Origin: Neolewinella agarilytica
Lineage (GTDB): Bacteria > Bacteroidota > Bacteroidia > Chitinophagales > Saprospiraceae
DNA: 64,000 nt
Direction of reading: 5' to 3'
Assembly: GCF_900110645.1 (NCBI RefSeq)
Contig: NZ_FOFB01000013.1
Span: 1 to 64,000 of the forward strand
Shown here: piece after piece, positions 15,786 to 22,438 of the stretch
Position numbering within the stretch: the first letter of the stretch is position 1
How the letters are laid out: each line of letters begins with the position of its first letter
Notes under the pieces: model-generated
The model's input: the letters and a program-made list of their open reading frames with translations, nothing else
What the model was told of the DNA's origin: nothing
The model's database searches: none
Position numbers and translations under genes: made by a program

Positions 15786-16325
15786 TTAATTTTCTTCCGA
15801 GCTCCCCAGAGTCGCCAAATAATTATTCAGCATTTCCATAGGCTTCACTACCGCCACCCGTCCGGAACGGACGAATTCGTACACTTTGAATTTCTTCAGG
15901 TCTTGCAATAAAGCCTCCGTTTCGTGCTCGTGGCCGGTCTTTTCAATGACTACGAATTCCGGTTCAATCAGCAATACCCGGGCGTTGTGCCGGCGGATCA
16001 GCTGCTCGACTTCACTACCATTGCTGAATACCTCGATGGGCACTTTATACAGGGCAATTTCCTGGTGTACAATCTGGCTGTCATCGTAATAAAACGCCTT
16101 TAGCACATCCACCTGCTTATCCAGCTGAGCCACCAACTTTATCACCATCTCTTTGGTTACGTCCACCACGATGGTAAACCGGTGGATCGTCGGGTCACTA
16201 CTCTGACTCGTCGTCAGACTAGGTATATTGATATTCCGGCGATTGAAAATGCCAACTACCCGGGACAAAAGCCCCGCCTGGTCTTCAGTAAAAACGGTGA
16301 TGGTGTAAGAATTGATTTCACTCAT
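15786..16325 (-). CDS. ilvN: Acetolactate synthase small (regulatory) subunit
   Basis: The 179-residue protein has an N-terminal ACT domain (YTITVFTEDQAGLLSRVVGIFNRRNINIPSL) and the C-terminal domain typical of IlvN/IlvH. It binds the large subunit IlvB and gives valine feedback inhibition of the first common step in valine, leucine and isoleucine synthesis. It is the third gene of a minus-strand ilvD-ilvB-ilvN set. A 174-bp spacer with a tandem repeat separates it from ilvB, so it may have reduced or separate expression. Length and motifs are normal. Confidence 0.94.
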   Translation of the reverse strand: MSEINSYTITVFTEDQAGLLSRVVGIFNRRNINIPSLTTSQSSDPTIHRFTIVVDVTKEMVIKLVAQLDKQVDVLKAFYYDDSQIVHQEIALYKVPIEVFSNGSEVEQLIRRHNARVLLIEPEFVVIEKTGHEHETEALLQDLKKFKVYEFVRSGRVAVVKPMEMLNNYLATLGSSEEN

Positions 16326-16427: not shown

Positions 16428-16501
16428 TTGACCAACTCATTGACTCCTTGACCATCTGACTGCCCGACTGTTTGACTCCTTGACTATCTGACTGTTTAAC
16501 T
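16428..16501. repeat. 32-bp-period tandem repeat in the ilvB-ilvN spacer
   Basis: Two units starting at 16440 and 16472 share 22 of 23 bases (ttgactccttgac then atctgactg), with a partial unit before them. The repeat is rich in TTGACT and CTGACTG words and ends at the last codons of ilvB. It lies between cotranscribed genes, so length changes by slippage could alter mRNA structure or stability between the two subunit genes. Confidence 0.7.
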
Positions 16502-18254
16502 ACTTAATATCCTCCGGACCTAAAATCACCTCACTAACCGCCTTACCACTTGGCACCATCGGGAAGACATTGTCTTCCTTTACGGTCGTAACGTGCAACA
16601 GGTAGGGGCCTTTATGCGCCAGCATTTCAGCGATGGCTTCCTTAACGTCAGCCGGATTGTTAATACTCCTTCCGGGAACGCCGAACCCCTTAGCAATGGT
16701 CACAAAGTCAGGGTTGACCAATTCAACGGAGCTATATCTTTTTTCGTGGAACAATTCCTGCCACTGGCGAACCATGCCAAGGAAGTTGTTATCCAGCAAA
16801 ACAATCTTCACACCTACATTCCACTGAGCGCAAAGTCCCAGTTCCTGTAGCGTCATCTGAAAGCCTCCATCCCCGATAAAAGCGATGGTTTCCCGCTCCG
16901 GGTCTGCATATTTGGCACCGAAGGCTGCTGGCAGTCCGTACCCCATCGTTCCGGCTCCGCCGGAAGAGACCCACTGGTCATGCCCCTTATACTGATAATA
17001 GCGGGCGGCCATCATCTGGTGCTGACCTACATCGGTAGCTACGATGGCCTGACCGTCGGTCTGATTACTCACTTCCCGAATGACCTGTCCCATCCGGATT
17101 TGTCCGTCTGCTGTTGGTGTAATTGCCTCATCAATAACCCGCTTTTTCTCAATGCGGGTGCATTCGTTGAAACGACCAACCCACTCCGGATAGCTCTTTT
17201 TTTCTACCAGAGGTAAGAGTTTTTCCAGCGCTTCTTTGGCGTCTCCGAGAACGGGCGCGTCGGCTTTCACGTTCTTGTTCAGTTCTGCCGGATCTACTTC
17301 GATGTGCACCACCTTACTGTCAGGCAGATAGGTAGACAGTTTACCCGTCACCCGGTCATCAAATCGCATACCAATGGCGACAACCACATCCGCATCGTTC
17401 TGCAGAAAGTTCGGACCATAATTCCCGTGCATGCCCAGCATGCCCATAAAGAGGGGGTGATCATCGGGCAAGGCCGACAAACCGTGACAGGTTGCACCAA
17501 CCGGAATACCGGTCTTATCCACAAAATCTCTGAAGATTTCCTGAGCGTGCGCAATGTGGATACCGTGGCCGGCCAGAATCATCGGTTGTTTAGCACCGTT
17601 GATCAATTCAGCCGCGGCCACCAGCTGGCTTTTCCTGACCTTATTGTAAGGTATATAGCTACGGATCTCCTGATCCCTGGGATAAACGAAGTCGACCATG
17701 GCCAACTGTGCATCCTTGGTTATATCGATCAGTACGGGCCCTGGCCGTCCGCTATTGGCGATATAAAAGGCTTTCTTGAATACCCAGGCGATATCCTTTG
17801 GATCCGTAATCTGATAGTTCCATTTGGTAACGGGAATGGTACAATTGATGACGTCTACTTCCTGAAAAGCATCGCTTCCCAACAAGTGTCCATGGACCTG
17901 CCCGGTAATGGCAACCAGCGGTAAGGAATCCAGCTGAGCATCACAAAGGCCGGTCAGCAGGTTAGTAGCTCCCGGGCCTGAAGTAGCCATACAGACGCCC
18001 GTCTGCCGCTTAATGCGGGCGTATCCTTCGGCGGCATGAATCGCCCCCTGCTCATGTCGGGGAAGGATATGCGTCAGCTTATCCTCAAAGTCAATGAGAG
18101 AATCATAGACCGGCATAATCGCTCCTCCGGGGTAACCAAAGATCGTATCTACGCCTTCATTAATCAGGCACCGCAAGACGGCTTCCGCCCCCCGAATCAA
18201 GTTCGGAGCCGGTGCTTTGCCGTTGGAGGAAGGTTTGGTGGCAGTGGTATTCAT
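16500..18254 (-). CDS. ilvB: Acetolactate synthase large (catalytic) subunit, biosynthetic type
   Basis: This 584-residue thiamine-diphosphate enzyme condenses two pyruvates to acetolactate, or pyruvate and 2-oxobutyrate to acetohydroxybutyrate. The N-terminal domain contains [16 protein letters not shown] and the catalytic glutamate segment [15 protein letters not shown]. The C-terminal domain has the ThDP-binding motif [13 protein letters not shown]...[15 protein letters not shown]. All parts are present and the length is normal for the biosynthetic enzyme. It lies 58 bp after ilvD and upstream of ilvN, all on the minus strand, and is probably controlled from the leader region upstream of ilvD. 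Confidence 0.96.
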
Positions 18255-18312: not shown

Positions 18313-19995
18313 CTAGAGATCCGTCACACATCCCAGTGAGGCGCTGCTGACTGATTTGGCGTATTTCTTCAGTACACCAAACTTTGCCCGCGATTCTGGT
18401 GGCGTCCAGCGGGCACGACGCTCAGCGATCGTGGCTTCGTCCAGCTCTGCTTCCAGAATGTTTTTCTCTGCATCGATCCGGATGATGTCGCCATCTTCCA
18501 GCAGACCGATCAATCCGCCCACCTGGGCCTCGGGGCTGATGTGGCCCACCACAAACCCGTGGGTTCCGCCGCTGAAGCGGCCATCGGTAATGAGGGCAAC
18601 CTTTTTACCCAGGCCCTGGCCCATCACTTCACTCGTTGGCTTCAGCATTTCAGGCATTCCGGGGCCGCCCTGCGGGCCGGAATAGCGGATGACGACCACG
18701 TCTCCCTCCACAATTTCACGGCGGCTCAGGGCCTGGTTAGCCTCCAGCTCCGAGTTGAACACTTTAGCCGGCCCCATGAAGTGCAGACCTTCCTTGCCCG
18801 TGATTTTAGCCACGGAGCCTTCCGTTGCCAGGTTGCCGTAGAGAATGCGTAAGTGACCAGTTTCCTTGATCGGTTGATCAAAGGGCTTGATGATTTGTTG
18901 TCCGGCTTTCAGCGGTGCTGCTTCTGCCAGGTTCTCGGCCAGCGTTTTACCGGTAACGGTCATACAATCACCGTGCAGGAGACCTTGCTCCAGCAATACC
19001 TTCATTACGGCTGGAACACCGCCGACGTAGTACAAATCTTCCATGACGTACTTGCCCGAAGGCTTCAGGTCTGCAATGAAAGGAACCTTATCGCTGACCT
19101 TCTGGAAATCGTCGATGGTAATGTCCAGGCCGGCAGCATGGCTCATGGCGAGCAGGTGAAGGACGGCATTCGTACTTCCTCCCAAGGCGGTAATGGTGAC
19201 CATTGCATTCTCAAAGGACTTACGGGTCAGAATGTCGCTCGGCTTGATGTCTTTTTCCAGTAGCCGGAGCATGTATTCACCGACGCGCTTGCAGTCAGCA
19301 GCCTTATCCGTGGAGTTGGCCGGGATGGAACTGTTGTAGGGCAAAGACATACCCATGGCCTCGATGGCGGAGGCCATCGTGTTGGCCGTATACATTCCTC
19401 CACAAGCACCGGAACCCGGGCAGGCGTGACGGATCACCCCTTTGTATTTCGTTTCATCCGCTTCTCCGGTCCGGTATTTACCCAACACTTCGAAGGCAGA
19501 AACAATGTCCAGCTTCTCCTCTTCGTAGCAGCCGGGGCTGATGGTGCCACCATAAAGCAGGATGGCCGGACGGTTGAGCCGGGCCAGCCCGATCATCGCC
19601 CCGGGCATATTCTTATCACAGCCCACTACGGTCACCAGACCGTCGTACCACTGTGCACCGGCAACGGTCTCAATACTGTCGGCAATTACATCGCGGCTGG
19701 GCAGGCTGTAGCGCATACCATCCGTACCCATACTGATACCATCACTTACCCCAATGGTGTGGTACATCAGGCCAATCAGGTCCTGCTGCTCGTTGATACT
19801 CTGTTTTACATCCTCGGCCAGGCCATTGAGGTGCATATTACAGGGGTTCCCTTCCCAACCGGTGGAGACCACACCAATCTGGGCTTTTTCCATGTCCGCA
19901 TCATCCATGCCGGTGGCGTAGAGCATGGCCCGGGCGGCGGGCTGTTCTGGGTTGCTGGTTACGTTTTTGCTGTACTTATTTAGCTGGTGTGCCAT
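18313..19995 (-). CDS. ilvD: Dihydroxy-acid dehydratase
   Basis: This 560-residue enzyme removes water from dihydroxyisovalerate and dihydroxymethylvalerate to give the 2-keto acids of valine and isoleucine. The iron-sulfur cluster cysteines lie in [11 protein letters not shown] and [18 protein letters not shown], and the C-terminal substrate loop [18 protein letters not shown] is intact. It is the first structural gene of the ilvD-ilvB-ilvN operon. About 100-170 bases upstream lies a branched-chain-rich leader peptide and, between the peptide and the ilvD start, an intrinsic terminator. Expression is therefore likely to be governed by attenuation that reads Leu/Val/Ile-tRNA charging. Confidence 0.97.
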
Positions 19996-20033
19996 ATGTT
20001 TGGGTTAGACGGAGCCTTCAGATTATTGGTTGG

Positions 20034-20076
20034 GATAAAAGAAAAGCCGCTTTCCCCCTAGAGGAAAGCGGCTTTT
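20034..20076 (-). terminator. Attenuator terminator upstream of ilvD
   Basis: A perfect 14-bp stem (arms 20063-20076 and 20042-20055 with a 7-base loop) reads in the ilvD direction as AAAAGCCGCTTTCC, loop, GGAAAGCGGCTTTT, followed by a T-rich run (TTTTC TTTTATCCC). It lies between the leader peptide stop (20092) and the ilvD start (19995), so it would stop transcription before ilvD. Bases 20061-20072, the 5' arm, can instead pair with 20096-20107 in the leader peptide coding end (11 of 12 pairs), which is the antiterminator expected for an attenuator. The A/T-flanked stem could also act on the other strand. Confidence 0.88.
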
Positions 20077-20091
20077 TTGCCCTGCACTAAA

Positions 20092-20169
20092 TCATGCTGC
20101 TTTCCTCCATGGGGTGGATACCACCACCACAAGAACAAGAATTAGCAACACGACGAGCAAAGCGTTCAT
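20092..20169 (-). CDS. ilvL: Branched-chain leader peptide of the ilv operon (IlvL-like)
   Basis: An ATG at 20169 opens a 25-codon ORF ending in TGA at 20092-20094. Residues 4-17 read LLVVLLILVLVVVV, that is 6 Leu, 7 Val and 1 Ile in a row, followed by STPWRKAA. This is the composition of the IlvL/IlvGMEDA-type leader peptides of Enterobacteria, where ribosome stalling on branched-chain codons prevents terminator formation. The mRNA segments fit the classic four-part scheme: segment 1 (20155-20163, codons 3-5), segment 2 (20096-20107, codons for the RKAA end), segment 3 (20061-20072) and segment 4 (20042-20055). Segments 1 and 2 pair 8 of 9. The peptide was too short for routine gene calling. 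Function is inferred from position and pattern. Confidence 0.87.
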   Translation of the reverse strand: MNALLVVLLILVLVVVVSTPWRKAA

Positions 20170-20218
20170 CAATTAGTTTCCTTTGATGCACACAATGTAC
20201 AAGGAAGCTACGGCCGGC

Positions 20219-20258: not shown

Positions 20259-20927
20259 TTAGTAGCGTCGATGATCAAAGCGAAAGAGGGCACGGATGCC
20301 CACCTGAAAGGTTGTCAGCTTAGGTTCCCGAACTCCAAGGGACTGTCCGTTTACGTCAGTAACGACCAAATCATCAAGCAGTGGCCCGGTACCTACTCGT
20401 GCATTAGCATAGGGTGTAATGGTTAACAAATTGCTGAGCCCGATATCCAACCCAACTCCACCGCCGTAGGTGAATCCATTACCACTATCGAACTCAAAGC
20501 CTTCACCGTTGAGGTCGTAAACGGCGTAGCCCGGAGACAGCTGCAGGTAAAAACCTTTTTGCAGTTGGGGGCCTTGTTTCCCGAACGTCGGGCAATCACA
20601 GTCTCCCCCAAAATCAAAGGGATAAACGTTTACCTTAAATTCAAAGCCATATTCCCTGAGCTGGATTTGAGTTCGATCAACCACATTGTCATCGGTTTTA
20701 CTGCTGGCAAAATAAACCGTTGGCAAAAACTCGACCCGTTTTTCGGGCAGGCGAAACCAGTAGCCAACCGATACCTCATTGCCTGCTTTCCAGTCCAGAA
20801 GGTTCTCTACTGACTCATCGCTAACATCCCAGCGTGTTTGGTTGAAATTAGCGGAGGCTGATACGGCCAGCTGGGCAAATCCGGTAGCGGAGGACAGTAA
20901 GAGAAGGAAAATGAATAGACGGCTCAT
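20259..20927 (-). CDS. Outer membrane beta-barrel protein
   Basis: From the ATG at 20927 the 222-residue product starts with a signal peptide (MSRLFIFLLLLSSATGFAQ) followed by beta-rich sequence with alternating hydrophobic residues and Gly/aromatic-rich strands, ending in a strand-like LTTFQVGIRALFRFDHRRY. A longer frame from 21152 would place 75 Arg/Pro-rich residues ahead of the signal, in a region of inverted repeats, and is not supported. It is of the opacity-like/OmpW-size barrel type. A short DCDCP segment is notable. No specific function can be assigned. It is transcribed toward the ilv leader, ending 90 bp before the leader peptide start. Confidence 0.72.
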   Translation of the reverse strand: MSRLFIFLLLLSSATGFAQLAVSASANFNQTRWDVSDESVENLLDWKAGNEVSVGYWFRLPEKRVEFLPTVYFASSKTDDNVVDRTQIQLREYGFEFKVNVYPFDFGGDCDCPTFGKQGPQLQKGFYLQLSPGYAVYDLNGEGFEFDSGNGFTYGGGVGLDIGLSNLLTITPYANARVGTGPLLDDLVVTDVNGQSLGVREPKLTTFQVGIRALFRFDHRRY

Positions 20928-21628: not shown

Positions 21629-22438
21629 TTAACCCGCTAACAGCTCCAGTAAGCGCTGCTTCCTCGCAGCGGCAACGGCTAACTCCGTCCCGTCATTCAG
21701 CGTAACGGCCCCACCCTTACCCCTATGATACCTTTTAACGCTGGCCAGGTTAATGACCGTAGACCGGTGGATGCGGAAAAAGCCCGCTGGCTCCAGCAAG
21801 GCGTCATAAAATTTGAGCTTACGGCAGATCAATAGCTTTCGTCCATCGGTCAGGTGGAAATTTGTGAAGTTATCCGCCGCTTCCAGAAAACGAATCTCTT
21901 CGGGCAGTACAATCTCTAATCCATCGATCAACGGCAGAGCCAGCCGGGAAGGTGCCTCCAGCGTGGTCTTTTTAAAATTTTCCAACAGAGTCCTGGTCAC
22001 CTGTCCTTGTTCCCGCAGTCCCGCCCGGGCCTTTACTTTCGCCACGGCGTCGATGAGATCATCAATATCCACGGGTTTCAGCAGGTAGTGCGCTGCGCTC
22101 ATACGAAGCGCACGCAAAGCATACTGCTCGTAGGCAGTAACAAAAACGACTTCCATCTGATGAGACGCAGGCAGGCGTTCCAGCAAATCAAAACCATTTC
22201 CAAAGGGCATCTCAATATCCAGAAACAGTACCTCCGGCTGGTGATTCCGGATAGCCTTCAGCCCCGCATCAACGCTTTCGGCCTCCCCTACCACCTGTAC
22301 ATCCGGGCAGTACTTCTCCAGGTAATGTCTTAGTGCCTCCCGGCTGGGCGCTTCGTCGTCAATAATTAGCGTTCTGATGGCGGTTGGTTTTGGTGATGAT
22401 TTATCAACCCGTTGGTAAGCTCGGTCGATTGGCTCCAC
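21629..22438 (-). CDS. LytTR-family response regulator
   Basis: This 269-residue protein has an N-terminal receiver domain (about 20-140; acidic pair TLIIDDEAPS, phospho-acceptor Asp in VLFLDIEMP, conserved Lys in LLKPVD) and a C-terminal LytTR DNA-binding domain (about 165-268; IRFLEAADNFTNFHL, GFFRIHRSTVINLASV). Such AlgR/LytR-type regulators are activated by a histidine kinase, often a 5TMR-LYT membrane kinase, and regulate promoters directly. No kinase gene lies next to it. The first 20 residues before the receiver domain are probably partly untranslated; in-frame starts nearer 22380 are possible. Confidence 0.88.
   Translation of the reverse strand: MEPIDRAYQRVDKSSPKPTAIRTLIIDDEAPSREALRHYLEKYCPDVQVVGEAESVDAGLKAIRNHQPEVLFLDIEMPFGNGFDLLERLPASHQMEVVFVTAYEQYALRALRMSAAHYLLKPVDIDDLIDAVAKVKARAGLREQGQVTRTLLENFKKTTLEAPSRLALPLIDGLEIVLPEEIRFLEAADNFTNFHLTDGRKLLICRKLKFYDALLEPAGFFRIHRSTVINLASVKRYHRGKGGAVTLNDGTELAVAAARKQRLLELLAG

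Follow-up and report, generated by a model that had tools for sequence, protein, structure and literature searches.

A probable leader-peptide attenuator upstream of ilvD-ilvB-ilvN in Neolewinella agarilytica and its distribution among Saprospiraceae

Organization of the ilvD-ilvB-ilvN locus

We analysed a 64,000-nucleotide stretch of the Neolewinella agarilytica genome (positions 1 to 64,000 of contig NZ_FOFB01000013.1, assembly GCF_900110645.1), referred to as the window. Its minus strand carries ilvD (18313-19995, dihydroxy-acid dehydratase; TIGR00110, E 5.7e-220), ilvB (16500-18254, acetolactate synthase large subunit; TIGR00118, E 7.5e-208) and ilvN (15786-16325, acetolactate synthase small subunit; TIGR00119, E 4.9e-32), with ilvD as the first gene behind the putative attenuator, while ilvC and ilvA lie on the opposite, plus strand. 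The gene upstream of the leader is on the same strand as ilvD and ends at 20259. Between them, a candidate promoter of the Bacteroidota type can be read from the minus strand at 20222-20192, consisting of TTTG (20222-20219), a spacer of 19 nt and TACATTGT (20199-20192). The motif TTTG-N18-20-TAnnTT, which we take to be the Bacteroidota-type promoter consensus, precedes the ilv leader in five of the ten leader-bearing loci of the genus (shuffle mean 0.1). Among the 48 other ilv entries, it was found in only 3 (shuffle means of 0.3 in strict and 1.1 in relaxed form).

The leader ORF, MNALLVVLLILVLVVVVSTPWRKAA*, comprises 25 codons on the minus strand (20169-20092), from an ATG at 20169-20167 to a TGA stop at 20094-20092. 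It contains a run of 14 consecutive Leu, Val and Ile codons (LLVVLLILVLVVVV, 20160-20119; 6 Leu, 7 Val and 1 Ile), as a preliminary description of this DNA had stated. None of the six Leu codons of the leader is CTG, the commonest Leu codon (39.8%) in 14 genes of the window, and we take this as a weak hint.

The region 20030-20180 folds at -65.9 kcal/mol (shuffles -40.3 +/- 4.06, z -6.31). An intrinsic terminator lies between the leader and ilvD at 20076-20042 on the minus strand, with segment 3 (20076-20061) as its 5' arm, segment 4 (20057-20042) as its 3' arm, a loop of 3 and the T-rich tail CTTTTATC (20041-20034). The perfect 14-bp hairpin described earlier is indeed present in its pairing of segments 3 and 4 (14 consecutive Watson-Crick pairs), and is extended by U.G and C-G to a full stem of 16 pairs. 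Segment 2 (20110-20095, minus strand) encodes WRKAA, ends directly before the leader stop and can pair with segment 3 instead, to form an antiterminator that excludes the terminator. The 11 of 12 pairs claimed for this 2:3 pairing were recovered, and the duplex has an energy of -21.2 kcal/mol (shuffles -12.0 +/- 2.2, z -4.22). As isolated units, the antiterminator and the terminator have energies of -24.1 and -25.3 kcal/mol, and when the RNA is folded from 20109 on, with segment 2 free, the minimum-energy fold is still the terminator (-32.9).

Segment 1 (20163-20155, minus strand) had been proposed as a protector of segment 2. In the window, 8 of 9 pairs can be formed by eye between GCTTTGCTC and GAGGAAAGC (p 0.01), but this part of the earlier scheme shows little conservation, p<=0.05 being reached only in the window and L135, with the other eight genus loci above this value. 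Over the 49 leader entries assembled below (window included), the mean z of this pairing was -0.87, with 9 entries below -2.

Between position 22301 and ilvC, no Leu/Ile/Val-rich short ORF was found, in agreement with the claim that ilvC lacks such a leader. This is compatible with split control of the pathway, in which ilvC might be regulated separately from ilvD-ilvB-ilvN. Likewise, no leader was seen before the leuA-like gene (553.6 bits, family cut-off 598.7).

Conservation of the leader within the genus

ilvD was present in all 21 genomes of the genus that were searched, with readable upstream DNA in 20 of them (L147 starts inside ilvD). The leader was found in 10 of these 20, i.e., in N. 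agarilytica itself and in L130-L138, whose IlvD proteins are 84-100% identical to that of the window, and was absent in the other 10 (L002, L139-L146 and L264, with Neolewinella litorea among them), whose IlvD proteins are 65-79% identical. An apparent eleventh leader, in L142, was a chance match inside an upstream open frame and was removed from the count.

The ten leaders share the consensus MxxLLxVVLLLVLVVVxPTxxRKAA. Within the run, Leu, Val and Ile replace one another, T being invariant at many second codon positions, while the RKAA* end, which is the antiterminator strand, occurs in all ten and is followed by the stem GCCGC 18-20 nt after the stop. The 2:3 pairing over the genus loci ranged from z -1.0 (L137, weak) to -4.1. 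The preliminary description had suggested that upstream regions of relatives be examined for a leader ORF with compensatory changes, and would have counted absence from close relatives against attenuation. The leader ORF was found in half of the genus genomes and is missing from the other half, and because the paired segments hardly vary within the genus, compensatory changes were obtained from other genera only.

A strong hairpin before ilvD is kept in four of the leaderless loci (L002, L140, L141 and L143). Loss of the leader in the leaderless clade is the simpler reading because other genera have leaders, with an independent gain in the leader-bearing clade as the alternative. In the leaderless L002 and L050, a promoter-like TATTTTG or TATCTTG can be seen by eye just 5' of the remaining hairpin, as if the transcript started at the old terminator.

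Distribution in the family and beyond

In the family set, an ilvD match was obtained in 51 of 80 genomes and 49 upstream regions were read, two matches being cut by contig ends. A strict leader, defined as an ORF of 10-40 codons in which at least 8 of 10 codons are Leu/Ile/Val and at least 6 are Ile/Val, preceded ilvD in 21 of the 49 family loci, counting the window. The reverse strand gave none in 49, and ten dinucleotide shuffles gave 0-1 of 49 each. In a set of named GTDB genomes, the corresponding numbers were 13 of 79, 1 of 79 and 0-1, and among the leader-bearing loci are records under the names Lutibacter, Flavobacterium and Sediminibacterium, as well as an Ignavibacteriae MAG. With the cut-off relaxed to 7 of 10, the separation was worse (25/49 vs 12 on the reverse strand; 27/79 vs 17 in the named set).

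The lax leader (7 of 10, with 5 Ile/Val) was used for a test of co-occurrence with a terminator that lies within 400 nt and folds at -13 kcal/mol or lower. Among the other genera of the family, a terminator was found in 22 of 23 loci with a leader and in 9 of 24 without one (Fisher p 2.8e-5), these 9 including L019 and L027, which have weaker leaders of the GGWY type. The named set gave 18 of 19 vs 13 of 60 (Fisher p 1.1e-8), the two tests being not fully independent because the sets overlap (L046/L081, L041/L091 and N. litorea L050/L143). Five loci (L006, L018, L073, L119 and L124) have no Leu/Ile/Val-rich ORF by the lax criterion and carry strong hairpins before ilvD, which have energies of -25.3 to -28.9 kcal/mol and are followed by T tails.

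For the pairing analysis, 49 leader entries from 43 loci were chosen by hand from the scans, with L019 and L027 taken in because of their GGWY-type ends. Excluded were ORFs that were weak or contained Leu only (for example L007, L060, L067, L069, L074, L077, L083, L094 and L124), the duplicates L081 and L091, as well as L084 and L095. A hairpin starts at most 39 nt after the stop in all 49 chosen entries, with one poor case (L109a). The antiterminator was stronger than in shuffles at p<=0.05 in 38 of 49 entries (mean z -2.96; 11 above 0.05). It was searched for only between the hairpin and a point 45 nt ahead of the stop, and its nearness to the stop in relatives is therefore partly by design. 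Each entry's own antiterminator-terminator pairing exceeded the mean swapped pairing in 45 of 49 cases (Wilcoxon p 9.8e-12). It is these shuffle and swap controls that carry weight, since the duplex was selected by optimisation and its anchoring is crude. Covariation is visible at the position that follows the shared AGCC in segment 3, where all four bases occur across the 49 entries and the partner matches in segment 4 in nearly all of them and in segment 2 in 37 of 49.

Two variants of the arrangement were observed. Six loci (L011, L022, L042, L071, L075 and L109) have two Ile/Val-rich leader ORFs in series before ilvD with a terminator after each, which suggests that attenuators responding to the same amino acids follow one another. 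In L042 the outer leader is the weaker one, with 6 of 10 codons, and L109 has an ambiguous inner terminator. The tandem attenuators of Salmonella mgtCBR similarly have two short ORFs per leader region, but they control a different operon, whereas both ilv leaders are rich in Ile/Val codons (PMC3641672, excerpt). In another six (L003, L008, L010, L019, L027 and L029), the leaders end in GGWY or similar and lie 220-375 nt upstream of ilvD; their last codons form the antiterminator, and a long stretch of 165-239 nt separates the end of their terminators from ilvD. A search of Rfam with 20 of the 24 family loci that are leaderless by the lax criterion returned only a SAM riboswitch in L014, more than 1 kb from ilvD.

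Operon content and amino acid composition of the leaders

In the downstream DNA of 20 of the 25 leader-bearing loci from other genera of the family, ilvC follows ilvN on the same strand in 15, of which 14 also contain ilvA, while among leaderless loci of other genera ilvC follows ilvN in 4 of 11. In the window and five leader-bearing genus-mates, ilvC does not follow ilvN in the DNA examined. The 17 leaders of 14 ilvDBNCA loci contain 119 Ile, 56 Val and 10 Leu codons, the five ilvDBN-type leaders of other genera 28 Ile, 20 Val and 8 Leu, and the ten leaders of the window's genus 61 Leu, 60 Val and 20 Ile. Because of these counts by operon type, the predicted Leu/Val sensor is a trait of the genus, tied only loosely to operon content. 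The idea that Ile content tracks the presence of ilvA in the operon holds at most partially, as the five ilvDBN-type leaders elsewhere are still Ile/Val-rich.

Proposed mechanism and alternative explanations

In E. coli, the ilvGMEDA, ilvB (ivbL) and leu operons are controlled by leader attenuators, which share a leader ORF with branched-chain codons, alternative hairpins and an intrinsic terminator before the operon. The N. agarilytica locus has the same elements, namely a short leader ORF in which codons for amino acids of the pathway follow one another, an intrinsic terminator between the leader and ilvD, and an antiterminator strand (20110-20095) that adjoins the leader stop (20094-20092), although the sequences are unrelated to those of E. 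coli and the genus uses mainly Leu and Val codons. The attenuator of Corynebacterium glutamicum ilvBNC also precedes acetolactate synthase genes, but differs, when compared by description, in its three-hairpin model and in having ilvC in the operon (PMC11857589, excerpt). The classical layout put forward in the preliminary description is thus supported: its parts occur in the order described, are kept in 10 of 20 genus genomes and recur in other versions in other genera and families. We conclude with high confidence that ilvD-ilvB-ilvN is likely under ribosome-mediated transcription attenuation, and that the operon is very probably turned up when branched-chain amino acids run short, as in E. 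coli.

From this anatomy and its conservation we infer the following course of translation, stalling and changed termination. Transcription would start just upstream of 20169, and a ribosome would translate the 25-codon leader behind RNA polymerase. When charged Leu- or Val-tRNA is scarce, the ribosome should stall within 20160-20119. Counted from the first base of the final Val codon (20121), the core of segment 2 (20107-20096) begins 14 nt further on, so that segment 2 would be free under a stall and could pair with segment 3 once this is made, thus preventing the terminator and allowing transcription of the operon. Under good charging, the ribosome would reach the stop at 20094-20092 and cover segment 2, segments 3 and 4 would pair, and transcription would terminate before ilvD. 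Because the terminator wins at equilibrium even with segment 2 free, the choice would have to be kinetic, with the antiterminator forming first. This is also how the antiterminator prevails in the classical model. An untranslated window leader is predicted to fold with the terminator formed, but the 1:2 protector behind this fold shows little conservation.

Could the hairpin be only the terminator of the upstream gene, with the hydrophobic ORF arising by chance? The upstream gene is on the same strand, and hairpins also occur before ilvD in leaderless loci (the 9 of 24 and 13 of 60 given above). But the hairpin starts 183 nt after that gene, downstream of a promoter-like motif, and leader, spacing and antiterminator are kept together, which makes this explanation very unlikely. 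Alternatively, the product of the ORF might be a small membrane peptide with a function of its own, either toxin-like or regulatory, and the terminator might belong to its gene, as 25 hydrophobic residues followed by a terminator might suggest. Leaders elsewhere are however rich in Ile and Val and poor in Leu and Phe (326 Ile, 155 Val, 60 Leu and 17 Phe in the 49 entries), unlike a generic membrane segment, and the C-terminal ends follow the RNA pairing (RKAA* or GGWY*), so that we consider such a peptide highly improbable.

It is also conceivable that another RNA sensor, either a T-box or a riboswitch, drives the terminator and the ORF is a bystander, and T-boxes and leader peptides do swap between phyla (PMC2965389, excerpt). 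Of the three explanations this one appears the least credible, because the coding run is conserved, there would be little RNA 5' of the leader if our promoter guess is right, and the window matched no T-box, riboswitch or leader family of Rfam 15 at the gathering score. Ribosome-mediated attenuation is hence the explanation that we adopt.

Attenuation in Bacteroidota and the trp, his and phe leaders

The preliminary description noted that this type of control is best known from Proteobacteria and Actinobacteria. This agrees with Naville and Gautheret (2010), to whom leader peptides were known only from these phyla, but the same work added Firmicutes (PMC2965389, excerpt), and a 2021 study of Flavobacterium psychrophilum had already reported strong indications that amino acid operons are attenuated by leader peptides, with structured 5' elements upstream of pheA and hisG (PMC9723704, excerpt). 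F. psychrophilum is of the same phylum, but ilvD, trpE, alternative pairings and the distribution in Saprospiraceae are absent from the excerpt of that paper used here. In Bacteroides thetaiotaomicron, transcriptome data include short ORFs reminiscent of leader peptides (PMC7366714, excerpt). No paper on ilv attenuation in Saprospiraceae was among the matches listed by a literature search covering few subscription journals, and Lopatovskaya et al. (2010) may hold predictions for the phylum. Attenuation in Bacteroidota has therefore been suggested before, and the ilvDBN attenuator proposed here is a new, well-supported instance.

Leaders for other amino acids are present in the same genome. A trpE-like gene (398 bits with TIGR00564, below the cut-off of 517.7) is preceded in L162 by the leader MHNKNLNNWWWLNRSLRAS (WWW), hisG in L160 by MFNFHHHHASFSCHTGER (HHHH) and pheA in L161 by MINRNFYFEYGFYFYPSGKGR (NFYFEYGFYFY), each followed by a terminator. 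Across the genus, 21 of 21 trpE-like loci have a leader containing two or three Trp (20 with a terminator), 18 of 21 hisG loci have one with at least three His, and all 20 pheA loci with upstream DNA have one rich in Phe/Tyr (L205 starts at a contig end). These counts take the ORF richest in the amino acid at each locus, without a shuffle control, and the antiterminator signal is weak (mean z -0.49, -0.65 and -1.27; p<=0.05 in 3/20, 0/18 and 7/20 for trp, his and phe, respectively). For these reasons the support is conservation, and only leader and terminator are claimed for the three operons. On these numbers, the ilv leader is less stable in the genus than any of the other three.

Ribosome-mediated attenuation in the classical systems requires that the leading ribosome follow close behind RNA polymerase. 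It may be that Bacteroidota generally control amino acid synthesis by classical attenuation and re-tune it quickly, with Ile/Val leaders before most ilv operons of the family, the shift to Leu/Val in the genus, serial double attenuators, loss throughout a clade, and leaders for Trp, His and Phe/Tyr in parallel, a generalization that we regard as evenly balanced between right and wrong. If it is true, transcription and translation would be closely coupled in a phylum that, unlike E. coli, starts translation without Shine-Dalgarno pairing (PMC9976891, excerpt), and the repeated attenuators would make this coupling testable with natural reporters. One genome would offer sensors for several amino acids (Leu/Val, Trp, His and Phe/Tyr), and one family a case of a regulatory RNA that was duplicated, re-tuned, and either lost or gained.

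The His leader, which was located via hisG, contains four His codons. A pattern of five His codons was also tried on the N. agarilytica genome and rejected, giving 15 matches vs 13 in a reversed control, of which seven inspected by eye were unlike leaders. The TTTG-TAnnTT motif was found at 0 of 21 hisG loci (18 of them with the His leader), and the hisG operon may therefore be read from a tRNA promoter. In L160, an apparent tRNA-Phe gene, recognized by eye, lies directly 5' of the hisG leader.
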